36,580 nt of DNA from a virus. The notes under the pieces are model-generated. The model ran no database searches, had not been told where the DNA came from, and saw only the letters and a list, made by a program, of their open reading frames with translations. Positions 1,382 through 28,386 of this stretch are shown here, one piece after another; the stretch's first letter is position 1, and the number at the start of each line of letters is the position of its first letter. A program made the translations under genes and the position numbers. Where the stretch lies: the IMG/VR virus record IMGVR_UViG_3300014838_000403, positions 1 through 36,580 of that record; one strand, written 5' to 3'.

Positions 1382-1443
1382 TGCTATTATTGTCTTAGGC
1401 AATACGCCCGTAGAAATGCGGGTTTTTATTTTAAGGAGAACCT
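1382..1443 (+). promoter_or_regulatory. Late-type promoter with AGGCAAT hairpin leader (copy 1)
   Basis: Extended -10 TGC-TATTAT at 1382-1390, with no good -35. Seven nt downstream the predicted message starts AGGCAATA (1397). It then forms a 6-bp stem 1407-1412/1417-1422 with a GAAA loop, followed by TTTTTATTTT, AAGGAG (1433-1438) and the ATG at 1444. The hairpin plus T-run can also terminate transcription arriving from the 1104 gene. Confidence 0.72.
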
Positions 1444-1842
1444 ATGGCATCAGCAACACAACCTCAGTCACAGAAACTTGAAACTGGTAAATCTAATTTT
1501 GGCGGCGCACCAGTTGATGGCAACCGGAGTTTCCTAGTCGGAGTTGGATCATTCTTTCAGACGCAAGACGCTACACCGACAACAGCCCTTGTCTCGCCCC
1601 TTAGTGTTACCACCGGCACAGTTGTACCGCTTGTTATCCCATTAAACGCCGTAAGTATTACTATCGTTGCTCTGACTAATCCAGTGGCTATCTCGGAAGT
1701 GACCGGCACGTCCAGTTTGAGCCAATACTTTCAGTTGCCATCAGGCCAGTCCATTACTATCTCAGTTGCCAGGCAAGCCTATCTCTATCTATTGGGCGTA
1801 ACTGGTACTTCGGTAGTGTCATTCATATTTAATACGATCTAG
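1444..1842 (+). CDS. Small virion-associated protein, function unknown
   Basis: 132 residues, rich in Ser, Thr, Val and Gly, with alternating beta-strand pattern and few charges after residue 25. This is the composition expected of a phage structural or decoration protein. No catalytic motif, signal peptide or clear membrane segment is visible. It has a good Shine-Dalgarno (AAGGAG 5 nt ahead of the ATG) and is the first gene of the late block that continues into fibre and adaptor genes. The presence of its own hairpin leader, like the capsid gene, suggests abundant late expression. I do not recognise the family. Confidence 0.72.
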   Translation: MASATQPQSQKLETGKSNFGGAPVDGNRSFLVGVGSFFQTQDATPTTALVSPLSVTTGTVVPLVIPLNAVSITIVALTNPVAISEVTGTSSLSQYFQLPSGQSITISVARQAYLYLLGVTGTSVVSFIFNTI

Positions 1843-1851
1843 GAGGTTACT

Positions 1852-2055
1852 GTGACAAATCCCATCAAGTGGCCCACCCAATGGCGACCTCCATCTGGTC
1901 AAGGTTATGTTTTAGCTAGTGGTAGTTTGCCGCTAGAAACTAATCTATTTCTTCCGATTGTAGACAATACGAGTAATCATTATCCAATAATTAACACTCC
2001 AAGTTATGTTGTCCCCAAATATGCGACTAAATGGACAAGGCAGGCGGCATCATGA
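1852..2055 (+). CDS. Small hypothetical structural-region protein (GTG start)
   Basis: 67 residues starting at GTG 1852, chosen because a perfect AGGAGG lies 6 nt upstream. The protein is rich in Pro, Asn, Thr and aromatic residues (KWPTQWRPPSGQGYVLASGS) and has no recognised motif. Its stop TGA overlaps the ATG of the next gene as ATGA, so the two are probably translationally coupled. Short proteins of this kind often occur before fibre genes, but no function can be assigned. Confidence 0.65.
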   Translation: MTNPIKWPTQWRPPSGQGYVLASGSLPLETNLFLPIVDNTSNHYPIINTPSYVVPKYATKWTRQAAS

Positions 2056-3074
2056 CAGTTATTGCTAATACTATAGGTGGAGCTTCAACCTCAACAACTG
2101 CACCATTACCAGTAGCCACGACCATAGATCCGGTTAATGACTTACTGGCGATTTATACTAACTCGCTGACAGCTACTCAAGCTATTAGTCGGAATGTACT
2201 ATTGGGGTTAGCCTCACAACCTCTCGGCTTAACTGATACCCAAAGTCCGACCAACAAGACATTTAACAACACTAACAGTCTGACGGTTGTGGCAGCTAAT
2301 CTTACGATCCAAGACGGTACAGATAATACTAAGCAAGCTAAGTTTGTGGCCTCAGGTATTACTACGGGTACGACCAGAAGTTATACATTACCCAACGCTT
2401 CAGATACTCTAGTCGGTTTAGCCGTTGCTCAGAATTTGACCAATAAGACTTTAACATCACCCGTGACTATAACCATATCTAACACGGGTGGACTAACCAC
2501 CGACACACTGACTACTTCAGGCAATGCCTCGATAGGCGGTACGCTTGGTGTAACTGGAGTTGTCACTCTTACCTCTAACTTGACAGTAGGTGGTACTTTA
2601 GGAGTAACAGGTGCTATAACTGGGCCATATAATATGTCTGGGGCGAATAACCCTTATAAGTTTAGTGTTTATTGGGCTGCTGGGGCTGGGGGTTATTTTG
2701 CTAGTAATTCCGTTTTCTATATCTTGAAGTTTGATACCAAGCCGTATGATACGTCCAACAACTTCAACACTTCTACTTGGACGTGGACTGTGCCGATGAC
2801 TGGGATATATCATCTTTCTACCCAATGTTTAGTAAATAACGGTGGTACAGCGATGACAGCGGCGATTTCATTGTGCATCAATGGCTCACAATTCTTCACT
2901 AATTACATAGCAGGAACTAATAACCTCGGTAATATCTATCCCGCCATAAATAAAGATTTGCGGTTTACTGCTGGAGATACGGTCACTATATATGGTCAAG
3001 CTGGAAATAATGGTATCGGTTGTACGGGGGGAAACGGGACATTCTTTGATTGCTTCCTAGTGAGTGCAACATGA
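2052..3074 (+). CDS. Fibre protein with C-terminal C1q-like head
   Basis: 340 residues from the ATG at 2052, which overlaps the preceding stop as ATGA; an in-frame ATG at 2031 is possible but less well placed. Residues about 55-190 contain the fibre repeats NKTF / LTNKTLTSPV and two copies of a GGTLGVTG motif, typical of beta-rich trimeric shafts. The last ~135 residues (from about FSVYWAAGAG to FFDCFLVSA) have the strand order and FxxGDTV motif of a C1q/TNF-like jelly roll, which in phages caps fibres and binds receptors. It is expected in the tail or on the capsid surface. The exact location is not resolved. Confidence 0.75.
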   Translation: MTVIANTIGGASTSTTAPLPVATTIDPVNDLLAIYTNSLTATQAISRNVLLGLASQPLGLTDTQSPTNKTFNNTNSLTVVAANLTIQDGTDNTKQAKFVASGITTGTTRSYTLPNASDTLVGLAVAQNLTNKTLTSPVTITISNTGGLTTDTLTTSGNASIGGTLGVTGVVTLTSNLTVGGTLGVTGAITGPYNMSGANNPYKFSVYWAAGAGGYFASNSVFYILKFDTKPYDTSNNFNTSTWTWTVPMTGIYHLSTQCLVNNGGTAMTAAISLCINGSQFFTNYIAGTNNLGNIYPAINKDLRFTAGDTVTIYGQAGNNGIGCTGGNGTFFDCFLVSAT

Positions 3075-3116
3075 CCGACCCCATAACAATAACCCTCATG
3101 AAACGGAAGATATAAT

Positions 3117-4022
3117 ATGATTACATTTACACAACTTTATACCGAAGCAGCTGATGGTTGCGGAATCGCTCTAACTGATACCGTGAACGTCAATTATATT
3201 AAGCGCAACATCAATAACGCTATTAAACTGTTTAAGAATGATGCTAGACGGTATTTCACTGAGAAGTGGATTGTAGCCGATCTCCAAGCTAACCAGCAAT
3301 CATATACTTTGCCGGCCGACTCTATAAGGGGTAGTGCAGTCCGTATCAATAACGGCTCTCTGATATTCCCGATCACCTCATGTGAGTCTGAGCAAGCCTG
3401 GAATGCTCTAAATGTTATTCCTAACTTTGCCGTCTTTTATCCGCAAAAATACTTCTTTAGAGGGGCAACCGAGGTTCTGGTCTGGCCGACTCCGTCTACA
3501 TTACTAACAGGAGGATTGATTATCGGTTATGACGCACGATTAGCAGATATGTATCTAGACGACACTGTAGGCGTGACTATCACTGCCACCAATAACTCTC
3601 AGACGATTACTTGTACAACGGGGAGCTTTAACGCCAATATGGTCGGTATGAAGTTCAGTGTGACTGACGGCAGCGATGGCAACTGGTATAATGTTCTGTC
3701 TTATATGGATGGCAATACTTTAGTACTAGATAATTACTATCAGGGACCAACAGTAACAACAGCCTTGACTATCATCGGAAGCTGCCCAGATATACCAGAG
3801 GAGTTTCAGCAAGGTTTAGAGTTTTACGCCCTGCACATTTTCCACTTACTTAAACGGGGTAATGTTAATAAATCTAACGAATTCAAAGCCTTGTATGATG
3901 TCATGCATGACGGGTATGTCGGGGCTTACTCGTCTAAAGAGACTTCACAGGTGGTTAATTCAAATGAGGGCATAATTCCTTACAATCCGCTGTTTGTGCC
4001 CCCAATGAATTTAACGGGGTAA
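3117..4022 (+). CDS. Head-tail adaptor protein (SU10-adaptor-like)
   Basis: 301 residues. An N-terminal helical part (1-60), a beta-rich middle with YFFRGATEVLVWPTPS (about 113-128), and a C-terminal helical bundle (PDIPEEFQQGLEFYALHIFHLLKRGN) match the plan of the adaptor that docks under the portal in short-tailed phages such as SU10. An inserted beta segment (about 145-210) with a V-I-T-x-N-x-Q-T-I motif resembles an Ig-like decoration. It is followed 3 nt later by the large tail protein, as expected for an adaptor-nozzle pair. GGAAG lies ahead of the ATG. The TATAAT touching the ATG (3111-3116) is too close to be its promoter. Confidence 0.65.
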   Translation: MITFTQLYTEAADGCGIALTDTVNVNYIKRNINNAIKLFKNDARRYFTEKWIVADLQANQQSYTLPADSIRGSAVRINNGSLIFPITSCESEQAWNALNVIPNFAVFYPQKYFFRGATEVLVWPTPSTLLTGGLIIGYDARLADMYLDDTVGVTITATNNSQTITCTTGSFNANMVGMKFSVTDGSDGNWYNVLSYMDGNTLVLDNYYQGPTVTTALTIIGSCPDIPEEFQQGLEFYALHIFHLLKRGNVNKSNEFKALYDVMHDGYVGAYSSKETSQVVNSNEGIIPYNPLFVPPMNLTG

Positions 4023-4025
4023 ACT

Positions 4026-6128: not shown

Positions 6129-6140
6129 GAGTTAAGTCTT

Positions 6141-6841: not shown

Positions 6842-6843
6842 CG

Positions 6844-9352: not shown

Positions 9353-9416
9353 TGCTAGAATACAAATAGACTTTTAGTCCGCCTCTTTGCGGGCTATTTT
9401 TATATAAGGAATCAAC
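9353..9416 (+). promoter_or_regulatory. Late-type promoter with hairpin leader (copy 2)
   Basis: Extended -10 TGC-TAGAAT at 9353-9361. The predicted start at A9368 gives AGACTTTTAG, a variant of the AGGCAAT start. An 8-bp stem 9375-9382/9389-9396 with one G-U pair is followed by TTTTTAT, AAGGA and the ATG at 9417. Confidence 0.65.
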
Positions 9417-10280
9417 ATGACACCAACCGCTCTCCAAAGTAATGTCAGCGCAGCCCAAGCAAACGGAGCGGCCAATCAGGCTGCTTTAAATAACCAATCT
9501 ACTCAATTACAGAATAATTACGGTCAAGCTCAGACAAACGCTACCAACGCCGTTAATGGTATTCAAAATGGCGGTACTTTATATGGTCAGAACTTAAATA
9601 CCCAAGAGAATGCTTTAGGTTTCAACCCGGCTAGTGTTGGTCAATCGGCCAATATGCTAACTTCCATCCAAAATAATGTCGCTAATGCCCCAACTGCTGC
9701 TCAACAGGCTGGTAATTACTACGGTACGACTGCTGGTGGAACAACCAATATCTTGAGCGGATTGATGAGTAATTTACAACCATCTTTGACTAATGCCACG
9801 AATAACATGGCTAACCAAACTCAGTTATATAGTGCTGCTCAAAATGCCGCTAATCAACAAGCTGGCTTAACCGTTCAGTCGCAAAACAACGCTGCCACTA
9901 ATGCAGTCGCCCAAATGCAAGCGGCTGGTACGATCATGGCCCAAATTGAGAACCTACAACAGCAACAGGGTTATCTGACCTCTGAACAGGTTACCGCTTA
10001 CCAGAATGCTTACAGTAGCTATGTAACAGCCCAAGCGGCTGCTTCTCAGGCTTCTAGTGCCGCAATAACGGCTCCGACTACGGCTGCAGCCAATACTGCT
10101 CAAGCTGGATTGTATGGCTCTCAGAATATAGCGCAACAAGCGGCAAACGCTAAGGCTGCGGCTGTGGCTGCCGCCGCCGCTAAACCCGCCGCCAAAAAGA
10201 CCACAACTACCACGAAGTCTGCCACTAACCCAGTCAATGTCAGCAAGATTTTAACTAATAACTCACAAGTAACAATATGA
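9417..10280 (+). CDS. Ala/Gln/Asn-rich probable internal virion protein
   Basis: 287 residues of strongly helical low-complexity sequence rich in Ala, Gln, Asn, Ser and Thr (for example AAQANGAANQAALNNQ), with a C-terminal Ala/Lys tail. Long Gln/Asn/Ala coiled helices are typical of ejection or internal core proteins of short-tailed phages, and the next gene encodes a glycine-zipper protein of similar type. The stop overlaps the next ATG as ATGA. It has a hairpin leader and AAGGA. No domain is recognised; tail-length determination is less likely at this size. Confidence 0.6.
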   Translation: MTPTALQSNVSAAQANGAANQAALNNQSTQLQNNYGQAQTNATNAVNGIQNGGTLYGQNLNTQENALGFNPASVGQSANMLTSIQNNVANAPTAAQQAGNYYGTTAGGTTNILSGLMSNLQPSLTNATNNMANQTQLYSAAQNAANQQAGLTVQSQNNAATNAVAQMQAAGTIMAQIENLQQQQGYLTSEQVTAYQNAYSSYVTAQAAASQASSAAITAPTTAAANTAQAGLYGSQNIAQQAANAKAAAVAAAAAKPAAKKTTTTTKSATNPVNVSKILTNNSQVTI

Positions 10281-12415: not shown

Positions 12416-12445
12416 TTGACAACTAAGCGTGTGCTGTGTTATACT
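12416..12445 (+). promoter_or_regulatory. Promoter of the 12455 gene, with putative operator in the spacer
   Basis: TTGACA at 12416-12421, an 18-nt spacer and TATACT at 12440-12445. The predicted start is about 12452, three nt before the ATG. The spacer contains AGCGTGTGCT, a short imperfect palindrome. The same arrangement recurs at 35239-35268, where 28 of 34 aligned bases are identical. Confidence 0.75.
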
Positions 12446-12454
12446 GTAGCCATT

Positions 12455-12637
12455 ATGATATTTATAGTAATTATAGGTTCAGTCCTTTTAATGATTGGAT
12501 TTTTACACGATGCGGAGGCAGATAAAGAAAATGCCCATCGAGCATGGTTAAGTAGTTTGCCGATCCAAATACAACTTAAATACCTAAAGGGTGAATACGG
12601 TCCAATCCCGAAGTGGTATCGTACTAATTCATGTTAG
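12455..12637 (+). CDS. Small single-pass membrane protein
   Basis: 60 residues from the ATG at 12455; upstream in-frame TTG lies in the -35 box and cannot be transcribed. Residues 1-17 (MIFIVIIGSVLLMIGFL) form one membrane helix, followed by a polar tail of ~43 residues with HDAEADKENAH and PKWYRTNSC. The near-leaderless position behind a strong, possibly repressed promoter suggests independent expression. It converges with the - strand gene that ends at 12624, overlapping it by 14 bp. Possible roles include immunity, superinfection exclusion or lysis control, but nothing in the sequence decides. Confidence 0.65.
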   Translation: MIFIVIIGSVLLMIGFLHDAEADKENAHRAWLSSLPIQIQLKYLKGEYGPIPKWYRTNSC

Positions 12638-12881
12638 TGATTGTGATATTGTCTTGCGCTTTGTCTAGAGCAAGAGCATAACCTAGATTGCAATTCGCAG
12701 CATACCCAAACCTAGTTTTGGCAATACCATCTAGATACACTGATGTCATGCGTTGGAGCATTTGATCTAACTCTTGTTGGGCGATAGCTCTATATTGCAT
12801 AAGTGTGTCTATCTCTGATTCCGTAAGAGTAAACTTCTTACCGGTTGGTGTATTTAGAACTTTATCTTTGATGCGACCCAT
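12624..12881 (-). CDS. Small hypothetical protein, divergent from the chaperonin operon
   Basis: 85 residues, mixed helical, with a charged start (MGRIKDKVLN) and a coiled middle (ESEIDTLMQYRAIAQQELDQML). No family recognised. A TAGGAG Shine-Dalgarno lies 5 nt ahead of the ATG, and the message should start near 12901 from the TATAAT on the - strand (12913-12908). That promoter shares a palindrome with the GroES promoter, so the two genes are likely expressed alternately. A link to chaperonin control is a guess from position. Confidence 0.65.
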   Translation of the reverse strand: MGRIKDKVLNTPTGKKFTLTESEIDTLMQYRAIAQQELDQMLQRMTSVYLDGIAKTRFGYAANCNLGYALALDKAQDNITITNMN

Positions 12882-12922: not shown

Positions 12923-13180
12923 ATGATCCAGCCCTATGGCATGCATATCCTAATAGAGTTACAAGGCGAGTATAAACACGCCACTACGCCAGATTCTCGT
13001 ATGGGCGGTACTAAGAAGCAGGGGGTGTGCGTGGCTGTTTCAGACGATCTTAATGAGGGCAAAAAACTACTTAATAAGGTAGTCTATTTTGACGAGTTTG
13101 AGGATACTACCAATTATAGTGTCGACGGTAAGAAGTACGCTTTAATAGATATTAAAAGTATAAAGGGGTATGAAAAATGA
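12923..13180 (+). CDS. groES: GroES-like co-chaperonin
   Basis: 85 residues from the ATG at 12923; a TTG at 12884 would start before the promoter. The sequence begins IQPYGMHILIEL, equivalent to IRPL-x-DRVLV of GroES, has a mobile-loop-like region (EYKHATTPDSRMGGTKKQG, about 15-33), GVCVAVSDDL in the place of GxVxAVG, and ends with DGKKYALIDIKSIKG, matching the DGxxYLxxxExDIL motif. It would cap the GroEL ring encoded two genes downstream. The length is slightly below the usual ~95 residues. The -10 ends 10 nt before the ATG, so the message is nearly leaderless. Confidence 0.82.
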   Translation: MIQPYGMHILIELQGEYKHATTPDSRMGGTKKQGVCVAVSDDLNEGKKLLNKVVYFDEFEDTTNYSVDGKKYALIDIKSIKGYEK

Positions 13181-13521
13181 GTTGTGAATTAGTGGTACTA
13201 TTTAATCCTAAAAATGATGGATCAGAAGTTATCTCTCAACTTGAAAAATATCTAGATAAACTTAAAGACAAATGGTCTATGGTAATTTGTAGTCGAATGA
13301 CATGGACGAGATTAGAGGGCGAGTTACAGGAGTTTGTCCATCCTAAATACGAAGCAACAGAGGTTAAGGGTTACGATAAAGTTACGGCAACTTCAAAGGG
13401 TTCAGTGCCATCAACCAATCCCCGACAGGGTTTTAATTCTCTTACGTATAAGAAACGACCAATCTGTTACACGTATGGAGATAATGTAGTAAGCGCAAGA
13501 GTAGGGGCTACTGATGCCTAG
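13177..13521 (+). CDS. Unknown protein between GroES and GroEL
   Basis: 114 residues, ATGA-coupled to GroES and overlapping the GroEL start by 8 bp. The N-terminal half is alpha/beta (CELVVLFNPKNDGSEVISQL, then LDKLKDKWSMVIC), and the C-terminal half is basic and polar (KGSVPSTNPRQGFNSLTYKK). No recognised family. Its tight coupling inside the chaperonin operon suggests it either assists folding or is a client or regulator, but that is purely positional. It is not a second GroES: the DGxxY motif and mobile loop are absent. GGGGT precedes its ATG. Confidence 0.68.
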   Translation: MSCELVVLFNPKNDGSEVISQLEKYLDKLKDKWSMVICSRMTWTRLEGELQEFVHPKYEATEVKGYDKVTATSKGSVPSTNPRQGFNSLTYKKRPICYTYGDNVVSARVGATDA

Positions 13522-15067
13522 TATCAATACTCGTAAAATAGTTTCAGGCGAGGAACTAGATAAAAGAACTCTTGATGGAGTAACTGCGGTTTATGAAGTA
13601 GCTAAGGCAGCTTATGGCCCACGATCAGGCAATGTTATCATCGAGGGTAACTTTGGCGATCCTATAATCTCCCATGATGGCGTATTCAATGTCGATAAAG
13701 TCCACTTAGAAGAACCGACTGCTAACATGGCTGTTCGGACTATCGTACAAGCCTCTAAGACTACCAATGTTAAAGTTGGTGATGGTACTACGGCTGCGGT
13801 AATTCTAGCTTATTACTTGTATCTAGAAGCTCGTAAACTAGTAACCGTCAAGGCCTCTAACCGTATGCAGGTTGCCAGAACGCTTAAACAAATCGCCGAT
13901 AAGGTCATTGAACAGATAGATGCTATTAAAAAACCTGCCGATGATGAATTGCTCCGTAATGTAGCCATAATCTCCGCTAGTGACTCAGCTACAGGTGAAT
14001 TACTGGCCGATACGATCAAAGAAGTGGGCGAGTACGGTGGACTTATTATTGAGAACTTTGCCGGCACAGGTATTTATAACGATATTGTCGAGGGCTTTTA
14101 CTTCCGCAAGGGCTTCACTGAGGCCAATCTTATCAACGACCCGTCTAATTTAGAGAGTCATTTTGAAAATGTAGCCATCTTAGTCACCGAAAAACGGATA
14201 CAAACTATCCCTGAAGCTGCCTCAATTATCGAGAAAGTAGCCGAGAAAGGGATTAAGGAATTAGTTATTGTTGGAACTGTCGAACCAGAAGCGATTTATA
14301 CCTTTATCAAGAACCGTTTGGACGGTGTGATAACCGTCAGCGTAGTCGATAGTCCAGTGTTCGGTAGTTTAAGGACCTTATTTTTTGATGATCTCGCTCT
14401 ATATGTCGGGGCTAAAGTCTTAACGCCCGGTGCTAATATAGATGACTTTCAGTTTGATATGCTCGGCGAGGGCAAAGTCCACATGAACGAGTTTGCCACT
14501 ACTATCCTTAATGGCGATGGCAGTAAAGAGGATCTAGAAGTACGGATTAAGGAACTTGAGAAAGAATTAAGTGTTGCCGAATCAGCCGTCACCCAAGAAG
14601 CAGTTAGGGAACGTTTAGGCAGATTAAAGGGTAAGATTGCTATTGTTAAAGTCGGTGGTGCTACCGAGGTTGAGCAGAAAGAGACTAAACTGCGAGTCCA
14701 AGATGCTATCTGTGCTGTTCAAGCCGCCATGAAAGATGGTGTAGTTCCCGGTGGTGGGGTGACGTTGGCTCGTGTTAAAATCGAGGGTGAGTTTGCCGAT
14801 GTATTTAAAATGACCTTTAAAGTGCTTATGGCGAATGCCGGCCTTAATAGCGAACAATATCTAGGCCGTATCTTAGAAGCTAAAGACTGGGAGGGTTACG
14901 ATCTGCGAGACGACGAACCTAAACTACAAGACCTAATCAAAGCAGGCGTGATTGATCCCGCCTTAGTTATCAAGGAAGTCGTCAAGAATGCTACAAGTGT
15001 GGCCGCCGAATTGATTAAAACCACAGTGGCTCTACCGTTTGCCGATAGAGAGAATAAGAGGGGATAA
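13514..15067 (+). CDS. groEL: Phage-encoded GroEL-type chaperonin
   Basis: 517 residues against about 545 in bacteria. Group I chaperonin motifs are present in order: GPRSGNVIIE (35-44), HDGV with D55 (equivalent to D52), GDGTT (89-93), the apical domain (about 180-370) with SPVFGSLRTLFFDDLA near 280, VGGATEVEQKE (380-390), RVQDA with D397 (equivalent to D398), VVPGGG (410-415) and IDP with D481. The ATPase residues are kept, so it should be active. The C-terminal Gly-Gly-Met tail is missing; it ends PFADRENKRG. The apical substrate-facing residues differ widely from host proteins. It forms an operon with its own GroES. Phage GroEL is known (for example phage EL) but uncommon. Confidence 0.95.
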   Translation: MPSINTRKIVSGEELDKRTLDGVTAVYEVAKAAYGPRSGNVIIEGNFGDPIISHDGVFNVDKVHLEEPTANMAVRTIVQASKTTNVKVGDGTTAAVILAYYLYLEARKLVTVKASNRMQVARTLKQIADKVIEQIDAIKKPADDELLRNVAIISASDSATGELLADTIKEVGEYGGLIIENFAGTGIYNDIVEGFYFRKGFTEANLINDPSNLESHFENVAILVTEKRIQTIPEAASIIEKVAEKGIKELVIVGTVEPEAIYTFIKNRLDGVITVSVVDSPVFGSLRTLFFDDLALYVGAKVLTPGANIDDFQFDMLGEGKVHMNEFATTILNGDGSKEDLEVRIKELEKELSVAESAVTQEAVRERLGRLKGKIAIVKVGGATEVEQKETKLRVQDAICAVQAAMKDGVVPGGGVTLARVKIEGEFADVFKMTFKVLMANAGLNSEQYLGRILEAKDWEGYDLRDDEPKLQDLIKAGVIDPALVIKEVVKNATSVAAELIKTTVALPFADRENKRG

Positions 15068-15342
15068 TGTTTACTTTCGTTACCACAATCATTGGAGCTT
15101 TTATAATCTTTGGTCTGGGTACATTTTTTGGTACTAAATATAAGGGTATTACCGATTCAATCCACACTCTCCAACATAAAGATGAGTCCGCACCACCAGA
15201 GATAATTAGAACTAACCCCCAAACCTACCGAGAGATAACGGCCGATACTAGTTTAGGTGGAAGTCTGGTTATTAAAACTAAAACTCCACAAGAGTTAGAA
15301 AAAGAGGACGAGGAAAAAGCTAATCGACTTGCGGGGCTGTAA
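15067..15342 (+). CDS. Small N-terminal membrane-anchored protein
   Basis: 91 residues, start overlapping the GroEL stop by one base (TAATG), with AGGGG upstream. Residues 2-24 (TFVTTIIGAFIIFGLGTFFG) form a single membrane helix, followed by a cytoplasmic or periplasmic polar tail with acidic KEDEEKANR at the end. Not recognised. It lies between GroEL and the packaging genes, so it may be a virion or membrane accessory of the late operon. Confidence 0.65.
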   Translation: MFTFVTTIIGAFIIFGLGTFFGTKYKGITDSIHTLQHKDESAPPEIIRTNPQTYREITADTSLGGSLVIKTKTPQELEKEDEEKANRLAGL

Positions 15343-15602
15343 TGGCTTCGACAGGTTACGTTTTAAACGGAAAATATTATAAGAAAAAGCCTGATCTTAA
15401 TAAACTACAGAACTTGCAGCAATCTACCTTTAAGGAGTGGGATCACGACAGGCAACGGTCAGATCATGCTGCCGATATAGTCCAGCCTTATAAACACGGT
15501 AAACCCAATCAAGACTTCATAGACCTCAACCATGATGCGGCTGTAGACTATGGGTTTATCAAGAAAGATGATGATGGAAGTCGAACAGATATTACTCCCT
15601 GA
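15342..15602 (+). CDS. Small charged protein ahead of the terminase
   Basis: 86 residues, TAATG overlap with the preceding gene. Highly hydrophilic, rich in Lys, Asp, His and Gln (YKKKPDLNKLQNLQQ, KEWDHDRQRSDHAADI). Its 3' end overlaps the start region of the terminase. Position just upstream of the large terminase is where small terminase subunits often sit, but no helix-turn-helix is obvious, so that remains a possibility only. Confidence 0.65.
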   Translation: MASTGYVLNGKYYKKKPDLNKLQNLQQSTFKEWDHDRQRSDHAADIVQPYKHGKPNQDFIDLNHDAAVDYGFIKKDDDGSRTDITP

Positions 15603-17342: not shown

Positions 17343-17410
17343 TGCTATAATTCTAGATAGGCAATAAGCATCGCCCGTCTTTCGGGCTTTTATTATATAA
17401 GGGAGTTAGC
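17343..17410 (+). promoter_or_regulatory. Late-type promoter with AGGCAAT hairpin leader (copy 3)
   Basis: Extended -10 TGC-TATAAT at 17343-17351, no -35. AGGCAATA begins at 17359. The stem GCCCG/CGGGC at 17373-17377/17383-17387 is followed by TTTTATTAT, AAGGGAG and the ATG at 17411. It could also terminate the terminase transcript. Confidence 0.75.
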
Positions 17411-17605
17411 ATGGCAAAAACAGCAGCAGACGTAATTCGCAAAACTGGCAAAACCGATGGCAAGTCTAATAAACTCGGTAAAGGTGGACGCTTCAAGCAG
17501 ATGGAGAGTAAGGGTCTTAGCCCTAAGTTAGTCGCATGGATAGGTGATAAAGTTCATGGCAAGAGTAAAATGCATAAATGGGCGGCAGCAGACCGTAAGA
17601 AATAA
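17411..17605 (+). CDS. Small basic protein before the portal
   Basis: 64 residues, very basic (about 18 Lys/Arg), for example RKTGKTDGKSNKLGKGGRF and KVHGKSKMHKWAAADRKK. Small basic proteins of this sort are common in phage head regions and may bind DNA. It is the first gene behind its own hairpin leader, with GGGAG before the ATG, and its TAA overlaps the portal ATG (TAATG), so portal translation is coupled to it. No family recognised. Confidence 0.65.
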   Translation: MAKTAADVIRKTGKTDGKSNKLGKGGRFKQMESKGLSPKLVAWIGDKVHGKSKMHKWAAADRKK

Positions 17606-19797
17606 TGATTTACCCATACGGGAGTCTATATCAGCCAGCACCATTCCCCGATCCTAGCGTAGACATTACTACGGAGACAGATGGTCGGATAGATTCGTTT
17701 GCTATCCTGACGCTCAAAATCTCTGACGATGCTCTTATTCATAATCTGAATCAACGTATAGATGATTCTAAGAATTACTGGGACGAACGATTAGGCTTCA
17801 ACCTAAGTTATACCCGTAACGACAATATGCGCATGTATCTGGGCGATCAGGTCAATGCTAGGGATTATTATAAATCGGAGACTCCTTACGTTGAGAACCA
17901 GATACAATTAGTCGTCGAATCAATCGTGGCTTACTCTACTGCCCGTACTCCCCAAAGCGAGTGTTCACCCAATGATGATAACGAACGAGCCAAGAAGTTT
18001 GCGCTTGATCTTGAGAACGCTCACGCTGCTCATTCACTTAAGTTCAATCTGAGAGGGTTAATTGAGATCTGTGTTCGCAATTGGCTACTTAAACGAGCCG
18101 CTTTTATTAAATTAGAGTTCGATCCGAGCTATGGCAAAAAGGGTGAGATTATACCAAAGGCGATAGACCCCGATCATATAGTGTGGGATAAGAACTCACC
18201 GTTTGGATCTAACCCAGGTTTCGTTACCCAGTTTATAAAACACACCGTAGAGGAACTGGTATTTTTATTCCCAGATAAGAAGCAAGCAATCTTTAACACG
18301 ATGGGCATTTCTCGTCGTGGTACTCGGAATATGACCGAGGAAGTAGTTATCAAACAGACTTGGTTTACCCACTATGATAACGGAGAACCTCAAGAAGCGT
18401 GTGCCGTCCACTTTGAGGACATTTTACTGGCTAAATACGATAACCCGAACTGGCTGGAGGGTCGAGATAACTTCCTAGATGCCCCACAAAAGCCTTTTAT
18501 CTCTCTTAATGTAATGAATGACGGCAATCATGGCATCGACATTACGACACCCATTGAACAGGCCATCAAGATGCAGCGATCTCTTAATAACAGAGGTCAG
18601 CAGATTACGACCAATGCCAATAAAGCAAATCCAGTTAAGTTAGTTAACGGTAAGTCATCGGGTATGACCAAAGAGGCTGCCGAAAATCTTACAATGGAAG
18701 CCGGTCAGACTGTTTTGCTTAATCCACGAGAAGCCAGTGCCAATGCTCCATTAGATAGTATGGTGGCTTACTTACCAGCTCCTGATCTCCCAGCTTTCGT
18801 GATGGATGATAAAGTCGATCTTAGGACGCAGATAGGTAATATAGGGGGCGCACCGAGTGACTTTACTGGTGCAGATGCCGGTGGCGACGATCCTACACTT
18901 GGTCAGAGCATGCTTAAGAAAGACAATGCTTCTGGTCGTCAAGATACCCTAGTCCGAGCCTTAGACACCTTTATGTATCGTTACTTCAACTTCTTAACTC
19001 AGATGATGTTTGTCTGGTACGACGAAAATCACTATTTCTACTACAACGGTCAAGATGGCAACTGGGATAAGATCACCGTCCAACGCAACTACTTTAAGTT
19101 AATCTCAGGAGTGACGATCAAGGCTGGTGGCACGATTGCCTTTGATGAGAATCGCCGTCAGGCTATAGTTCTTAAATTACTTGAGGGTAAAAATATCGCT
19201 CTAATAGACGCTTACCGTGAACTGGGCTTTGAGAATCCCCAAAAACTATACGATAACTGGGCTAAACAAAGTGCTAATCCGCTTGATCTGGCCCGTGAGG
19301 GTAATGAAACCTATAACAATACTCAGGCTTATGTCGAGTTTGATGAGATCATGTCAGGTAAGAATCCCAAGATGAGATATGACATGGGTACTGACTTTAT
19401 TCTAACCCTCCGTAAATTGATGCTTACCGATGAGTTCTTAAAGGCTAAACCAAAGCGACAGAATGCCTTGATTAAACGAGTTCAGGAATACATTGCCTCG
19501 CTTGAATTACGGACCAGTTTAGATCAGGTCAGCCAAGATCCGGCTCAACTCAATCCTGCCCTGCCGATACCTCCTCCACCACCGCCAACACCACCATTGC
19601 AACCAGGAATGCCGGGTGCTATGATGCCGCCGGGGGGAGTACCGGGTCAATCAGCGTTAGGCATGCCTCCGCCGGGAAGCCCTCCACCTGGACCGATGCC
19701 TCAACCATCAGTCAGCTCAGTCTTTCAGGGTTCTCCAATCCCTAATATGGCACAGCCCAATACCCCAACTGCCATCAATTCTGTGCCTGGATTTTGA
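17605..19797 (+). CDS. Portal protein
   Basis: 730 residues. The N-terminal half has the portal clip/stem type sequence ETPYVENQIQLVVESIVAY, a wing with DPDHIVWDK, and PKAIDPDHI, typical of portals of short-tailed phages where an aspartate-rich turn precedes the stem. The helical region (EQAIKMQRSLNNRGQQITTN) and TLGQSMLKKDNASGRQD, a crown-adjacent segment, follow. The last ~90 residues are a Pro/Gly-rich tail (PPPPPPTPPLQPG). It forms the dodecameric ring through which DNA enters and to which the terminase docks. Its TGA is part of the promoter element of the scaffold gene. Confidence 0.9.
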   Translation: MIYPYGSLYQPAPFPDPSVDITTETDGRIDSFAILTLKISDDALIHNLNQRIDDSKNYWDERLGFNLSYTRNDNMRMYLGDQVNARDYYKSETPYVENQIQLVVESIVAYSTARTPQSECSPNDDNERAKKFALDLENAHAAHSLKFNLRGLIEICVRNWLLKRAAFIKLEFDPSYGKKGEIIPKAIDPDHIVWDKNSPFGSNPGFVTQFIKHTVEELVFLFPDKKQAIFNTMGISRRGTRNMTEEVVIKQTWFTHYDNGEPQEACAVHFEDILLAKYDNPNWLEGRDNFLDAPQKPFISLNVMNDGNHGIDITTPIEQAIKMQRSLNNRGQQITTNANKANPVKLVNGKSSGMTKEAAENLTMEAGQTVLLNPREASANAPLDSMVAYLPAPDLPAFVMDDKVDLRTQIGNIGGAPSDFTGADAGGDDPTLGQSMLKKDNASGRQDTLVRALDTFMYRYFNFLTQMMFVWYDENHYFYYNGQDGNWDKITVQRNYFKLISGVTIKAGGTIAFDENRRQAIVLKLLEGKNIALIDAYRELGFENPQKLYDNWAKQSANPLDLAREGNETYNNTQAYVEFDEIMSGKNPKMRYDMGTDFILTLRKLMLTDEFLKAKPKRQNALIKRVQEYIASLELRTSLDQVSQDPAQLNPALPIPPPPPPTPPLQPGMPGAMMPPGGVPGQSALGMPPPGSPPPGPMPQPSVSSVFQGSPIPNMAQPNTPTAINSVPGF

Positions 19798-21017: not shown

Positions 21018-21104
21018 TTGCATTGTTTTAACTAGTCTATTATTATTGGTGATAGGCAGTTAGCCCGCAACCTTGCGGGTATTTTTATTTTAAAGGAGTA
21101 AATT
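21018..21104 (+). promoter_or_regulatory. Capsid promoter with AGGCAGT hairpin leader (copy 4)
   Basis: TTGCAT (21018-21023), a 17-nt spacer and TATTAT (21041-21046); the only copy of this class with a good -35. AGGCAGTTAG begins at 21054. The stem CCCGC/GCGGG at 21064-21068/21075-21079 is followed by TATTTTTATTTT, AAAGGAG and the ATG at 21105. Confidence 0.78.
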
Positions 21105-22196
21105 ATGGCAGGTATGACATTCCTCCAACGAGTAACAGACTTCACTTATCAGCACATTTTACCGACAGTTGTCGATAACATTAACAATGCAAATATCTTG
21201 TTTGCACGAACTTTGGCAAAGCCGACAGACTGGCTTGGACCAACGATGTGGCAAAACATTACTACCGGGAACTCCGCAACTGGTGGATCCTACGCAGGAA
21301 TGGCGGTCTTTCCAACTGCTGCCACAAACAACACTACCAAATTGGTTTACTCACCTGCCGCTTTTGAACAATCAGTTGTCATCCCAGGTCTAGACAAAGC
21401 TATTAACGCTGGTCGTGGCAAACAAGCCATCGCTATGCTGACCTTTAAAATGGATGAAGCAGTTTACTCAGCAGCGAATAACTTAGGTACTCAAATCTAC
21501 GCATTCGGTTCTGGCACAGACATTGACGGACTTGGTAACATTGTAGACAATGGCACGAACTCCGCCAGCTACGGTGGCCTTCTACGCACGACCAACCCAG
21601 GTATCAATGCCGACGTTACGACAGTTCTAAACGGAATTGTCACTCTAGACTACTTGAGTTCAGAGTTTGACAACGTCAGTGCCACTGGTGACCGTCGTCA
21701 GAGTCCATCAATCGGCCTGATGTATACTCCAGTTTGGACATACATCGAGGGTCTGATTCAGCCAATGGTTAGCGCACATTACGAAGCGACTCAGACAATG
21801 GGGTATAACCGTGTCGACGGCGGAGTGCCAATCGGGACTTCGGTTCGTCAGGACGACAACCGTTTGGGCGCACTTGGTGGCTTTAACTCGATTACTTACC
21901 GCAACCGACCATTAGTGGCAGATGACAAGGCGACACCTCAAACATTCTTCTGGCTTAACGAACACTTCTCAGAGTTTGCCCGACTATTGCAGGACGACTT
22001 GCAAAATATCAATTCGACAGTCAAGGTTACAGAATCAACCTATAAAGATCAGCCGATGCCGTCAGCATTCCAATGGCGTGACTTTATGAAGTCAATCAAC
22101 CAGAACGGTGAGATTGGGCTTCTACTCTTGGCTGGGAACTTCATCAACCGTCAACCTCGCCGCCAGGGCAAGTTGATAAGCATAACGAGTAACTAG
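21105..22196 (+). CDS. Major capsid protein
   Basis: 363 residues, no N-terminal delta domain. The order and composition fit an HK97-fold capsid protein of the small-to-medium family found in short-tailed phages: an N-terminal arm (MAGMTFLQRVTDFTYQHIL), an E-loop region with NITTGNSATGGSYAGM, a spine helix (KQAIAMLTFKMDEAVYSAANN), and the P-domain LRTTNPGINADVT to the end with QPMVSAHYEATQTMGYNR. It follows scaffold and portal, the usual order, and its codons end in C more often than those of its neighbours, as for highly expressed genes. The strong promoter and full Shine-Dalgarno agree. The fold itself is inferred. Confidence 0.85.
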   Translation: MAGMTFLQRVTDFTYQHILPTVVDNINNANILFARTLAKPTDWLGPTMWQNITTGNSATGGSYAGMAVFPTAATNNTTKLVYSPAAFEQSVVIPGLDKAINAGRGKQAIAMLTFKMDEAVYSAANNLGTQIYAFGSGTDIDGLGNIVDNGTNSASYGGLLRTTNPGINADVTTVLNGIVTLDYLSSEFDNVSATGDRRQSPSIGLMYTPVWTYIEGLIQPMVSAHYEATQTMGYNRVDGGVPIGTSVRQDDNRLGALGGFNSITYRNRPLVADDKATPQTFFWLNEHFSEFARLLQDDLQNINSTVKVTESTYKDQPMPSAFQWRDFMKSINQNGEIGLLLLAGNFINRQPRRQGKLISITSN

Positions 22197-23823: not shown

Positions 23824-23831
23824 TCCGCATC

Positions 23832-23859: not shown

Positions 23860-23866
23860 TATTGGT

Positions 23867-24103: not shown

Positions 24104-24623
24104 GCCAGCAGATATTAAAAAGACCGAGATTTACGGTCAGTCCGACGTTGATTTATCTATTACATTTAGAGACAGACTTATTAACCGTTTTGCTGCCCAT
24201 GAGTTTGTCGAAGTTATGAACATTGACGATGAGCCGATCGAGTGGCAATACCTACCAGAACATGCCGAAACGATTAGCTCAACAGATGAGGGTACTAAGA
24301 TTACCAAGCGTGATGATCCTGAACTATGGCGGATTGAACCGGGTGAAACAGACGTACTAAATGGCGCATGCGCTTATCTGATGATCGAGAATTTATACAA
24401 GAAACTGGTCATTAAGAAAGTCGGTGTCGTCGAGAAGCCCCAAAGTGGCAAGGAAGTCCGTAATTTTAACTTCAAAGATCCACTTCGGGCCGAACAGATT
24501 ATAGACATGATCTATCAGGGTAAAGTTAATCCTAGTTTTAACCAAGCCCAACCTAATAAAGTAAGGTTAGACAAACCAGATGCCACAGCCCCCAAAGCCG
24601 TCGCTATCAAGTCTAAAGTCTAA
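24090..24623 (+). CDS. Hypothetical structural-region protein
   Basis: 177 residues, starting with AAGGAGGG 8 nt upstream and overlapping the previous gene by 14 bp. An alpha/beta protein with an acidic central part (AETISSTDEGTKITKRDDPE) and a helical segment LNGACAYLMIENLYKKLVIKK, ending in a basic tail. No family recognised. The last 44 bp overlap the next gene in another frame. Confidence 0.6.
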   Translation: MPQVKPADIKKTEIYGQSDVDLSITFRDRLINRFAAHEFVEVMNIDDEPIEWQYLPEHAETISSTDEGTKITKRDDPELWRIEPGETDVLNGACAYLMIENLYKKLVIKKVGVVEKPQSGKEVRNFNFKDPLRAEQIIDMIYQGKVNPSFNQAQPNKVRLDKPDATAPKAVAIKSKV

Positions 24624-25365
24624 AAAGACTCAGGCCCAAAAGGAATTAGATCAGATACTTCTGGTGATACCCAGTAAGCGTCAGATTTTAGATCAATTAT
24701 TACTGGAGATTAAGACTGCTGGCACTATCCTAGAGGATAATTTCTCGCACGAAGAACTCAAACTAGAGCGTGAGCATCTAGCTAAACAAGAGGAATTGCA
24801 GGCTAAAACTAAATCTCTAGTAACTAGTTACGAACTATTAGAGACAAGAGAGCAGAAACAACTTGAGCTAATTGCTGAGTTAGAGAGCAAGGAATCGACC
24901 CTGCGTAGTTCTGTTACTGAGATTAGTACACAGATTAGTAATGGCAAACGTGAGGCCGAAGCCTATCGGGTTGAGGTTAATCAACTACGCTCAGATGAAA
25001 CTACCCTTAAAAATAGTATCGATGCCCTCAAAGACCAGAAACAGGTGGCCCAAGACGCTTTTGATGTTCAGGTTGGGGATAACCAGAATACACTCTCTCT
25101 AATGCAATCTAATTATCGAAGTAAACAAACTGAACTAGATAAGCAAATTGAGATAGCCAATGATAAACTTCACGACTTGCAACATCGAGTCTTACTCCAT
25201 ACCAATAAAATGATCGCTCTAGAGGAAGAACAGAAGCAAAAAGACAACGACCTAATTCAGAGAGAAAATGCCATTATTATTAAGACTAAAGCTCTCGCCA
25301 AAGATCAGGCTGAGTTTGACCACGAGATTAAGCGTTGGGGTTATATCAAACCGACCGAGAAATAG
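24580..25365 (+). CDS. Long coiled-coil protein
   Basis: 261 residues, nearly all helix with heptads from about 15 to 250 (KTQAQKELDQILLVIPSK, EHLAKQEELQAKTKSLVTS, QIEIANDKLHDLQHRVLL). It ends in VK-type Lys/Glu sequence followed by a late leader. The ATG at 24580 lies 44 bp inside the previous gene and has no good Shine-Dalgarno, so it is either coupled or joined to that gene by frameshifting near the CCCCCAAAG run at 24588-24596; neither is proven. A structural rod, scaffold or tail-assembly role is possible. Confidence 0.58.
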   Translation: MPQPPKPSLSSLKSKKTQAQKELDQILLVIPSKRQILDQLLLEIKTAGTILEDNFSHEELKLEREHLAKQEELQAKTKSLVTSYELLETREQKQLELIAELESKESTLRSSVTEISTQISNGKREAEAYRVEVNQLRSDETTLKNSIDALKDQKQVAQDAFDVQVGDNQNTLSLMQSNYRSKQTELDKQIEIANDKLHDLQHRVLLHTNKMIALEEEQKQKDNDLIQRENAIIIKTKALAKDQAEFDHEIKRWGYIKPTEK

Positions 25366-25367
25366 CG

Positions 25368-25425
25368 TATAATGTGTTTAGGTTTTACCCGCATTTTAGC
25401 GGGTTTTATTTTATAGAGGAATAAT
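25368..25425 (+). promoter_or_regulatory. Late-type promoter with hairpin leader (copy 5)
   Basis: TATAAT at 25368-25373, with no good -35. The predicted start A25380 gives AGGTTTTACCCGC. The stem ACCCGC/GCGGGT at 25387-25392/25399-25404 is followed by TTTATTTTAT, AGAGGA and the ATG at 25426. Confidence 0.7.
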
Positions 25426-27774
25426 ATGCAACCAGGCCGTTTACCATTTGACCAAAACAGAATACGAGTATCTGGAGGTATATCCGACACTGGTCCTGAG
25501 GCTATTTTACCGTTAGAAGTTAATACTAATGGTGGTCTAGACGTAAACATTGTCGGAGGCAGTTCTGCTGGAACTCAGTATTCTTCTGGGATTACCACAC
25601 CTAGCCCCGTAGTTGGCAACGCCATTATTTTTGATAACTCAGGCACACTACAGGATGTTTCGGTAGCCAACCCACTACCTGTGTCGGCTACGTTTAGCGG
25701 ATCGATATCATCTTCTCCGACTTATTCTCAGAACCCCGCCGCTGGGTCTCCTACCCCTGCTTATGGCTTGATAGATAGTTCCTATAGACCCCAAGTATCA
25801 ATTGCTACAGCCCTACCCGCAGGAGCTAACGCTATCGGTTCTATTACGAATACATCTTTTACGGCGAATGCTGGGACAAACTTAAATACATCAGCCCTAG
25901 TTACAAGTGCTAACTTAACCGCTGGTACACAAAAGAGTCAGATAGTCGATGGCTCAGGTAACGTAATCGCTTCAACTTCTAATGCCCTTGATGTTTATAT
26001 CTCAGGCGGCGGTACATCGGGTACGCAATATCAGGAATTAGCCGTTACTCAGCCCGCAACTGGTACATTAGCTCTAGGTAGATACCAGACATCTCTACCG
26101 ACTCTGACCAACTTACAGATGAATGAACCGATGCTGGATGCCTCTAGTAGATTACTAGTAAACTTAGTGGCTTCAAGTGCCACCGTAACAGTTGCCGGGA
26201 CGGTGACCACAACTCCGCCGAGCAATGCCTCTACTAACCTTGCCCAAGTAGGTGGATCAGCGATTTCTTTAGGGACTTCTACGGCAGCCAATTCACTGCC
26301 AGTAGCCTTACCGACGGCGACCATTACAACTCTTACTCCGCCAGCCGCTATTACTAACTTCGCTTTGGAGACTGGTGGCAATCTGGCTACATTAGCTGGT
26401 ACTGTATCTGGTGGGTTAGTCAAAGTTTCAGATGCAGGAGGTTCATTTACCGTAGACACTGGTACACCTGGGACATTTGCTGTAACAAATGCCGGTACTT
26501 TTGCAGTACAAGATAGCACGACCGAAACCAATACTGGTACGACTGCTACCAACACAGGCACTATAGCGGGCGCAGTTACTTCTAGTGTTATGCAGAGTAA
26601 TATTAAAAACTTCGGTGGTACGGCAGTCACGATCGGTCAGCAATTAGCTGCCGCTTCGATGCCTGTTATCCTACCCTCTGCTACAATCACGACTTTATCT
26701 CAACCAACCCTGCAAAGTGGCTCGACGACAACCGTTACACAAGGTACTGGTTCTAATCTTCATGTTGTAACAGATAGTGGTACGATCACGACAGTATCGG
26801 CCGTAACTGCCATAACGAACGCTCTGCCCGCTGGAACTAATGCTATAGGTAATGTTGGTGCTTCAACAGCTATAGCTTCAGCAGTTCCTAGCAATGCTTT
26901 CTACAATGGCATAAGCGATCAGACAGGCAAATTAACTGGCATGGTAAGTGCCAACACTGCTTCCGGTACTACGGGGAACGGGTTACTTGGTGTAGCTAAT
27001 ATGGTCTTTGATGGCACAGATTATCGTTTACAAACAGTTAATTCAACAACTTATACGAGTAAATATGGTGGTGATGTCAACTTACTGGGGACATTAGGAA
27101 CCGCATTCACAACTGCTGGGTTAGTAGACGTTAAAGGGACTGACGGCAACGTCTTTGTCCGTCAAACTACGGCTGCTAATCTAAACGCTACGGTTATCAA
27201 TGCCGCTGGTTCGGCTCTTATGGGCAAAGTCGGCATTGACCAAACCAGCATAGGAAGTACGAACGCTATATCCATCGCAGACATTGCTGCAACAGCAGTT
27301 AATGTTGCTGCTGCTGGTACACTATTAGTCGGTAATGCTGATGGTGCAGGGAATAAGTGGACTTCTAACTCGACTGCTACTTCAGGTAAATACGCCCAAG
27401 ACCTAAACATGTTATCTATTTTAGGCACAGCACCGACTACTGCTGGTGTCCTGAACGTACAAGGTGTATCTGGTGGCACGACTATCCCAGTTACCGCAAC
27501 TCCTGCTGTTGCCGGCACTATTTATAATGGTCAAAAAGCTGTTACAGCTAGTGCCGCAACTATTGCCACTACTCAAGCTATTACTCAGGGCGTAACTGTT
27601 GAAGCTCTTTCAACTAATACTATCAGTGTCTTTGTTGGGGCGTCTGGAGTTACCACCTCTACAGGCATAGAGTTACCTGCCGGTTCGTCTATTACCCTCC
27701 CTGTGAGTAATGTTAATTTAGTTTATGTAATTGCCTCTACTACTGGAGCAACAGTAACCTATGTGGCGGTCTAA
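25426..27774 (+). CDS. Large repetitive fibre protein
   Basis: 782 residues, Thr/Ala/Gly/Asn-rich and beta-prone throughout. There are duplicated units: ALPAGANAIGSI near residue 128 and ALPAGTNAIGNV near 468; LPVALPTATITTL near 290 and MPVILPSATITTL near 409; GTLGTAFTTAGLVDV near 555 and SILGTAPTTAGVLNV near 665. No catalytic motif. It resembles extended fibre or baseplate-adhesin proteins of phages, with a separate small protein (27775) following as tip. AGAGGA precedes the ATG. Position between head and lysis genes fits a tail or head fibre. Confidence 0.62.
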   Translation: MQPGRLPFDQNRIRVSGGISDTGPEAILPLEVNTNGGLDVNIVGGSSAGTQYSSGITTPSPVVGNAIIFDNSGTLQDVSVANPLPVSATFSGSISSSPTYSQNPAAGSPTPAYGLIDSSYRPQVSIATALPAGANAIGSITNTSFTANAGTNLNTSALVTSANLTAGTQKSQIVDGSGNVIASTSNALDVYISGGGTSGTQYQELAVTQPATGTLALGRYQTSLPTLTNLQMNEPMLDASSRLLVNLVASSATVTVAGTVTTTPPSNASTNLAQVGGSAISLGTSTAANSLPVALPTATITTLTPPAAITNFALETGGNLATLAGTVSGGLVKVSDAGGSFTVDTGTPGTFAVTNAGTFAVQDSTTETNTGTTATNTGTIAGAVTSSVMQSNIKNFGGTAVTIGQQLAAASMPVILPSATITTLSQPTLQSGSTTTVTQGTGSNLHVVTDSGTITTVSAVTAITNALPAGTNAIGNVGASTAIASAVPSNAFYNGISDQTGKLTGMVSANTASGTTGNGLLGVANMVFDGTDYRLQTVNSTTYTSKYGGDVNLLGTLGTAFTTAGLVDVKGTDGNVFVRQTTAANLNATVINAAGSALMGKVGIDQTSIGSTNAISIADIAATAVNVAAAGTLLVGNADGAGNKWTSNSTATSGKYAQDLNMLSILGTAPTTAGVLNVQGVSGGTTIPVTATPAVAGTIYNGQKAVTASAATIATTQAITQGVTVEALSTNTISVFVGASGVTTSTGIELPAGSSITLPVSNVNLVYVIASTTGATVTYVAV

Positions 27775-28284
27775 ATGTTAGGTTATTCTACAAGCTCAGG
27801 CATGCAAAAGGGAGTTTATGACCCAGCAGCTATTGCTCAACAAGTTGTTGGTACAACTGCTACTCAAACTCTAACCCATAAAACCTTTGACGCTACAAGC
27901 CCAACAGCATTTTTGCCCCAAACTTCTACCACAGCCAATGGTTCTTCAACTACGGGATGGGCGGCGACACCGACAGTAAATGTCCAATATATTCAAATAG
28001 GAATAGTAGTTATTTTAACGTTTAGTATTACCGGTACTAGCAACGCTACGACAGCAACCCTAACACTTCCTATTGCTGCTGCAAACTTTACAAACATTTA
28101 TTATGAGTCTACTCTAGCCTTAACCTCAGATACCGGAGTCAACTATTCAACCCCAGGCAAGACTTTTGTCGCCCCAGGAACTTCTAATACTACTTGTAAC
28201 TTTTATAAAGACGAAACAGGTCTCGGATGGACGGCTAGTGGCACTAAGGCCGTGCGGGGAACCTTAATTTATCTAACAGCCTAG
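27775..28284 (+). CDS. Fibre-tip protein after the repetitive fibre
   Basis: 169 residues beginning at the base following the previous TAA, without a Shine-Dalgarno, so coupled translation is likely. It contains a T-L-T-H-K-T-F motif near residue 37, the same fibre-type motif as in the C1q fibre (LTNKTLT). A beta-rich region to the end follows (CNFYKDETGLGWTASGT). It is presumably a receptor-binding or trimerisation tip of the 25426 fibre. No known family. Confidence 0.58.
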   Translation: MLGYSTSSGMQKGVYDPAAIAQQVVGTTATQTLTHKTFDATSPTAFLPQTSTTANGSSTTGWAATPTVNVQYIQIGIVVILTFSITGTSNATTATLTLPIAAANFTNIYYESTLALTSDTGVNYSTPGKTFVAPGTSNTTCNFYKDETGLGWTASGTKAVRGTLIYLTA

Positions 28285-28321
28285 GAGCCATAAATGTTTG
28301 GCTCAAATTCTATTTTAATTG

Positions 28322-28386
28322 TGATATAATCTGTTTAGGCAATAGCCCCCACTTTGGGGCTTTTTGTTTAAGTAAGGAAGATATAA
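28322..28386 (+). promoter_or_regulatory. Late-type promoter with AGGCAAT hairpin leader (copy 6)
   Basis: Extended -10 TGA-TATAAT at 28322-28330. Predicted start A28337 gives AGGCAATA. The stem AGCCCC/GGGGCT at 28344-28349/28356-28361 is followed by TTTTG, AAGGAAG and the ATG at 28387. Confidence 0.75.

Follow-up and report, generated by a model that had tools for sequence, protein, structure and literature searches.

A repeated promoter and hairpin leader ahead of putative late operons in a group of phages that likely infect Patescibacteria

Why would a phage place, between one operon and the next, a promoter whose transcript opens with a recurring sequence and then folds at once into a hairpin of the kind that ends transcription? 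The question is raised by IMG/VR record IMGVR_UViG_3300014838_000403, a stretch of 36,580 bases analyzed here in full and referred to as the window, in which six sites, leaders a to f, carry this arrangement. A preliminary description of the sequence had listed the six sites and proposed that the initial transcribed sequence is conserved together with the promoter. Beyond this, we found complementarity between the first transcribed bases and the hairpin's 5' arm, as well as a restriction of the element to one phage group. Our preferred, still tentative interpretation is that the element is a group-specific operon-punctuation cassette of ~60 bp, located between late operons and equipped with a two-state leader. 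The transcription starts and the late timing of the leaders are presumed from the sequence.

All six sites share the same order of parts: a -10 box, 6-7 nt, AGG or AGA at the presumed +1, a GC hairpin, a T-rich stretch corresponding to a U-run, a Shine-Dalgarno sequence (SD), and an ATG, in agreement with the earlier listing. We refer to transcript positions +2 to +4 as box 1 and to the 5' arm of the hairpin as box 2. Leader a (1385-1443; all six are on the plus strand) has a -10 box TATTAT at 1385-1390, a presumed +1 A at 1397 opening AGGCAAT, a hairpin at 1406-1423, and an ATG at 1444 that begins the gene of a small virion-type protein, fam11 (1444-1842). Leader b (9356-9416) has TAGAAT at 9356-9361, +1 at an A at 9368 opening AGACTTT, box 2 AGTCC, a hairpin at 9375-9396, and the ATG of fam13 at 9417 (9417-10280). 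Leader c (17346-17410), with TATAAT at 17346-17351, A 17359 opening AGGCAAT, a hairpin at 17373-17387, and an ATG at 17411, precedes a 64-aa open reading frame (ORF) and then the portal gene (17605-19797). Leader d (21041-21104), which also has a -35 hexamer TTGCAT, combines TATTAT at 21041-21046, A 21054 opening AGGCAGT, a hairpin at 21063-21080, and the ATG at 21105 of the major capsid gene (MCP; 21105-22196). Leader e (25368-25425) has TATAAT at 25368-25373, A 25380 opening AGGTTTT, box 2 ACCC, a hairpin at 25387-25404, and an ATG at 25426 for a fibre-like protein of 782 aa (25426-27774). Finally, leader f (28325-28386), with TATAAT at 28325-28330, A 28337 opening AGGCAAT, a hairpin at 28344-28361, and an ATG at 28387, precedes an ORF (28387-28830) and the endolysin gene (29040-29924). 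The leaders display the anatomy of an intrinsic terminator, a GC-rich hairpin directly before a U-run, with stems mostly of 6-9 bp; termination itself is a prediction.

A composite scan of the window for a -10 box, AGGC, AGGT or AGAC, and a terminator-like hairpin returned six plus-strand and two minus-strand matches, against zero to three per dinucleotide shuffle (20 shuffles, both strands pooled). In the terminator scan, where a U-run required at least 5 T in 8, the six leader hairpins were the top-scoring plus-strand sites of the late region. The AGGCAAT string alone was rejected as a motif, its 25 loose matches in the window against 14 expected being not significant; it is the composite that stands out. 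A covariance model (CM) search had been proposed previously. Trained on 43 leaders from other phages with the window left out, the CM placed five of the six window sites on top (28325, 9356, 17346, 21041, and 1385, with rough E-values from 1e-5 to 0.02), scoring leaders f, b, c, d, and a at 39.6, 34.5, 31.8, 26.0, and 22.7 bits, respectively, and it located 41 further sites in relatives at E <=0.05, some of which overlap the training set. Leader e (25368), in which the box 1/box 2 pair is divergent, was not recovered by the CM in the window, and no Rfam family had a match there above its gathering score.

The window has no near-identical named phage by megablast. Among named phages, its capsid protein is nearest to that of TM7 phage DolZOral124_53_65 (49% identity), a complete phage whose recorded host is candidate division TM7 / Saccharibacteria. 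Capsid-gene relatives were present at 80 IMG/VR loci, most of them 50-64% identical to the window capsid, and the ~80 phages sharing this gene, along with the TM7 phage, define the group considered here; freshwater and groundwater samples are among the sources of its contigs. An early guess of an Arthrobacter-like phage, drawn from TerL matches, was abandoned because of the capsid evidence. One capsid relative is located in a metagenome-assembled genome (MAG) of 0.9 Mb, and the genomes sampled from the phylum of that MAG are mostly 0.5-1.4 Mb, with two larger, which is consistent with Patescibacteria. Patescibacteria are the likely host of the group, likely rather than settled because the contig bearing the relative may be mis-binned in the MAG. 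The core shared across 19 compared genomes consists of the capsid, the portal, GroEL, a GroES-like protein, and ~12 families of unknown function. Several records carry terminal repeats of 98-127 bp and therefore look complete.

In nearly all relatives, the region upstream of the capsid gene reads -10 box, AGGCA or a variant, AGCC, hairpin, U-run, SD, and ATG, and 51 of 64 non-redundant capsid upstream regions passed a strict hairpin-plus-U test, compared with 0.3% of shuffles. The element keeps to particular genes. A leader-type hairpin lies upstream of MCP in 15 of 18 phages, of fam11 in 13 of 16, and of fam13 in 12 of 16, while each remaining core family has one in only 0-3 of 15-31 upstream regions; some portal and fibre-like genes have a copy ahead of them as well. 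Of the copies in the 19-genome set, ~75 fall between genes and 2 within genes. Hexamers resembling a -35 box occur at 49 of 90 leaders versus 13% of random positions, and since the -35 hexamer played no part in leader selection, this excess indicates that the leaders carry real promoters. It could be argued that ordinary promoters and ordinary terminators have simply been crowded into short intergenic gaps, as the genomes are compact and both types of signal belong between operons. We consider such a coincidence extremely improbable; the promoter always comes before the terminator, the distance from start to U-run is near-constant, the start sequence recurs, and the same gene families are preceded by the element in ~80 phages at the rate over shuffles given above.

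The element also appears to be confined to the group. A homology-free scan of 2.9 million viral contigs, in which a plain -10/AGGCAA/AGCCCC pattern was used without protein information, gave 40 loci; all of those with a terminator and a downstream gene also bear core genes of the group, whereas in the unrelated matches the hairpin and following gene are missing. In the putative host phylum, the pattern was present in 2 of 96 genomes, neither match running on as a leader in the matched string, and the CM found nothing in 29 genomes of that phylum in a run that had no positive control. The near-absence from the sampled genomes (2/96) speaks against a host origin and, combined with the contig scan, indicates that the element is a property of these phages. 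A scan of viral contigs with a generic AGGCA-AGCCC-GGGCT-TTTTT pattern was discarded, as ordinary terminators dominated it and a -10-like box was in place in 16 of the 119 matches listed.

The 43-leader alignment revealed double-sided changes in five of the eight stem pairs (37 cells versus 18 in shuffles) and a stem covariation score of 0.242 versus 0.147 in shuffles, figures that are partly circular because leader selection demanded a hairpin; the test at the capsid position is free of that circularity. The compensatory changes that the preliminary description had named as a check in relatives are present. Its account of the start sequence stands in part. The start is AGGCAAT or a variant, and its conservation alongside the promoter extends to ~80 related phages, but its variation is patterned and tracks the hairpin arm. 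Specifically, box 1 is complementary to box 2 in the matched sets GGC/GCC, GAC/GUC, and GGU/ACC. Among non-redundant leaders, GTC follows 8 of the 11 GAC starts compared with 3 of the 79 other starts (Fisher 3e-7). Watson-Crick matches between the two boxes occur in 75 of 90, whereas 2000 re-pairings gave 60 on average and never more than 69. Across the alignment, 98.4% of the possible pairs at the three box 1/box 2 positions are formed, and double changes number 5 where 0.7 would be expected.

The direction of this dependence is visible at alignment column 36 of the stem, which changes from C to U six times. Its stem partner, column 55, stays G in five of these, leaving a G-U pair, and in five of the six changes the box 1 partner, column 18, goes from G to A. 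The change in the stem arm thus follows box 1 and not the stem. Box 1 switches within single genomes (leaders b and e versus the other four in the window; one L032 leader) as well as between relatives (L010/L029, L028, L045, L069), and ~5 separate co-switch events were counted. A clade with a long stem retains AGCCC even though this segment is partly in the loop. The complementarity implies two mutually exclusive folds, box 1/box 2 pairing competing with the terminator. Conserved, mutually exclusive pairings with one common arm are likewise a property of trp-type and ribosomal-protein attenuators; here, in contrast, the competitor is the very 5' end of the RNA, the pairing is just 3 bp long and weak in energy, and neither a ligand nor a coding leader is known.

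Box 1 has a further potential partner. In many relatives, box 1 of the capsid leader (GGCAAAU or a variant) pairs with sequence immediately past the U-run, and the mean duplex energy of this outer helix is -3.37, compared with -2.70 (standard deviation 0.17) upon partner exchange, a value reached in 1 of 300 exchanges. In another clade, the transcript start instead builds the base of a single long stem. Both architectures are predicted to leave ~1 nt unpaired at the 5' end. In the predicted fold of leader f, AGGCAA also pairs with a U-rich stretch beyond the stem. A 5'-terminal stem with no more than 1-2 free nucleotides is thus predicted for many relatives' capsid leaders and for leader f, not for leaders a, b, d, and e. 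The suggestion that the element serves as a 5' stabilizer gains from these predictions, in which the leader ahead of the capsid gene is able, in many relatives, to cover its own 5' end.

The position of the element would suit a terminator for the preceding gene, another role proposed for it. The promoter sits a median of 13 nt past the upstream stop codon, so that no separate terminator fits between the operons, and the hairpin would be well placed to end the upstream operon. The U-run lies ~31 nt from the presumed start with a narrow spread, and the expected release point is ~+37 (5-95%: +31 to +43). A compensation between spacer and hairpin length, strong at first, shrank once box 2 was taken as the reference point (p 0.009, Spearman p 0.054) and is not relied on. 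In a single-molecule study of E. coli polymerase, a 38-bp start-to-terminator unit terminated at ~33-38%, and after release the polymerase was able to slide and start again at the original upstream promoter in vitro, which according to the authors has not been observed in vivo (PMC6978380). The geometry in the window is nearly equal, and a relay could be pictured in which the released polymerase, without leaving the DNA, slides ~40-50 bp backward until it reaches the promoter and restarts, so that each upstream operon feeds the next. Such a relay would explain the placement of the element, but not the conserved box 1, box 2, and outer helix, and we regard it as very unlikely.

From the anatomy, the gene placement, the group restriction, the co-variation of box 1 with box 2, and the outer helix in relatives' capsid leaders, all of which can be read from the sequences, we infer the start site, termination, readthrough, switching, 5' protection, and any trans-acting factor. 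The cassette with a two-state leader would operate as follows. Its order is upstream stop codon, sigma70-type promoter, set first transcribed bases, intrinsic-terminator-like hairpin, SD, and ATG. Polymerase arriving from the upstream operon would be released at the hairpin and U-run, the sole good terminator there. Polymerase starting at the cassette's own promoter would make the 5' end AGGCA, and box 1 could pair with box 2 (AGCC) as box 2 exits the enzyme, delaying or weakening the terminator so that a fraction of transcripts reads into the gene; the weak 3-bp pairing would probably depend on assistance from a protein or from the polymerase itself. Once transcripts have read through, mainly into the capsid gene, box 1 would instead re-pair past the U-run or at the base of the long stem and leave only the first nucleotide free, and the covered 5' end would protect the message.

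Several points weigh against this interpretation. The box 1/box 2 pairing comprises only 3 bp at ~-2.7 kcal/mol, compared with -11.6 for the terminator stem, and the permutation figures overstate independence because the leaders are related. The clade of G014 and G015 lacks box 1 in this form, and the window's own capsid leader (d) has no outer helix. Selectivity for the own promoter is left unexplained, because readthrough RNA from upstream also carries box 1 and no upstream masking segment was found; one was suspected by eye at leader a and proved not general (mean -3.80 versus -3.69 when exchanged; 37/200 as low). In addition, no Q-, N- or NusG-like gene was recognized by Pfam or PHROGs in a record that is possibly incomplete and in which most ORFs have no family and not every ORF was scanned. 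A stricter form of the idea, a start-discriminating terminator whose own first bases act as a minimal cis antiterminator, so that cassette-started polymerase reads through and upstream polymerase stops, seems to us unlikely.

Close behind the two-state leader stands a passive explanation, doubtful in our view, in which the hairpin would first terminate the upstream operon and then, as a 5' stem-loop, stabilize the downstream mRNA; readthrough would be sufficient without a switch, and box 1 would serve only start choice and 5' sequestration. The promoter adjoining the upstream stop and the covering of the 5' end in many capsid leaders through two different architectures agree with it, as does the short U-run of the long-stem clade, expected if the stem outweighs termination. 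Purified B. subtilis RppH requires at least two unpaired 5' nucleotides (PMC3997798), which also favors a stabilizing role. Stabilizing stem-loops of ompA, papA, and T7 late mRNA similarly place a stem near the 5' end ahead of highly expressed genes, although here the stem is terminator-like with a U-run, a conserved start sequence precedes it, and the promoters are of the sigma70 type rather than served by a phage polymerase. Passive stabilization predicts neither the tracking of box 1 by box 2 at an unchanged stem partner nor the persistence of AGCCC in a loop. Moreover, a stabilizer needs no U-run, yet the U-run is nearly universal in short-stem leaders, a count for which the scan partly selects.

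A lambdoid style of control, in which termination is the default and a phage protein bound to leader RNA or promoter DNA lets polymerase pass at all late operons together, was also considered. It would fit one element common to several late operons, its confinement to the phage group and absence from the sampled genomes of the putative host phylum, and the early-type window promoters (12416, 35239, and 33492 on the minus strand), which have no hairpin leader. We nonetheless judge it improbable. The lack of a Q-, N- or NusG-like gene recognized by Pfam or PHROGs among the ORFs scanned counts against it as well, a single binding protein does not alone explain the matched changes of box 1 and box 2, and fam16, the most conserved small orphan tested, has no structural match. 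As antiterminator candidates, fam16 (predicted local distance difference test, pLDDT, of 80.7; a long helix and a beta-hairpin without significant structural match) and the zinc-ribbon-like fam12 (a poor model, pLDDT 57.5) were both set aside.

One of the nearest known arrangements is that of lambda pR'-tR', where one late promoter has a promoter-proximal intrinsic terminator in its leader, ~190 nt away, and a Q gene is present. The window leaders share the promoter-proximal terminator ahead of late genes and differ in that there are several per genome, release is expected at ~+37, no Q is recognized, and box 1 pairs with box 2. Q and sigma-dependent pausing in lambda late control have been described (PMC9378689); examined by eye on the alignment, AGGCAAT-type starts display no conserved A2/T6 hexamer of a -10-like sigma pause element. 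The put element of HK022, a cis-acting leader RNA of ~70 nt with two stem-loops, acts on distant terminators (PMC9378689). The present leader is similarly a cis-acting RNA at a phage promoter with a potential influence on termination, and unlike put it is ~37-50 nt long, with a single hairpin and the terminator inside the leader. In cluster K mycobacteriophages, non-structural genes carry the start-associated sequence (SAS) at their ribosome binding site, and extended SAS (ESAS) repeats are unsupported as RNA pairing (PMC3203893). SAS/ESAS, too, are short conserved elements that recur upstream of many genes in a single phage group and are missing from the host (PMC3203893), but the window leaders differ in sequence and position from the 13-bp GGGATAGGAGCCC at the ribosome binding site, and comprise the promoter and leader of structural operons with support for pairing.

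The count of six copies holds for the plus strand; on the minus strand there is a further, less strict copy (33745), the seventh, which the earlier listing did not include. It spans 33655-33767 and combines a strong promoter (TTGACA/TTGACT and TATAAT) and a start AGACTTTAGC with a hairpin GCACCTCC-GCAA-GGAGGTGT. Following the promoter is AGACTTTAGCAA, the arms of the subsequent hairpin (CACCTCC-GCAA-GGAGGTG) are anti-SD-like and SD-like, and a near-repeat AGACCTTAGCAA and a second hairpin (CTATTTG...CAAATAG) come before TCTTTTT. Judged by these features, the locus is more likely a small RNA of ~75 nt or an early leader than a late leader.

Variant layouts were observed among relatives. Leaders at L036:10092, L048:10291, L042:7065, and L059:10934 read TTTTTATTTATG, with no SD separating the hairpin from the start codon. 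Three sites in terminase-only relatives (L017:13910, L018:10727, L018:16277) have a -10 box, a start GAGACAC or GGACACAC, and a hairpin and T-run ending 6 nt before the ATG, again with no SD; possibly they represent a distant form of the leader that lacks a ribosome binding site. Upstream of 14045 in L025 (MW202566), a capsid relative at 30% identity, TATAGT, AAGGCA, and a hairpin with TTTTATTATT precede the capsid gene, and the layout may on this basis reach beyond the group.

Elsewhere in the window, a TTGACA-18-TATACT promoter at 12416-12460 has an ATG ~8 nt past its -10 box, before the GroES-like/GroEL block; this nearly leaderless start contrasts with the hairpin leaders. The GroES-like and GroEL genes (12923-15067) are kept in nearly all relatives, with GroEL in 19 of the 19 compared genomes. 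Two small orphan families, fam16 (12624-12881, minus strand) and fam14 (15342-15602), are kept in 15 of 19 phages.

Next to nothing is known about transcription control in phages of Patescibacteria; the literature found on them treats host range and genetic code, with no mention of promoters or terminators. For ~80 metagenomic phages, the leader allows start sites, 3' ends, and operon borders to be predicted exactly, and it offers a searchable signature for placing contigs in the group. It also provides a small and testable example of RNA folds that compete at the extreme 5' end of a transcript, accessible in vitro with plain bacterial RNA polymerase and without phage culture. If the start-discriminating form were true, a single 60-bp module would suffice both to insulate each late operon and to drive it, with no need for a protein switch.

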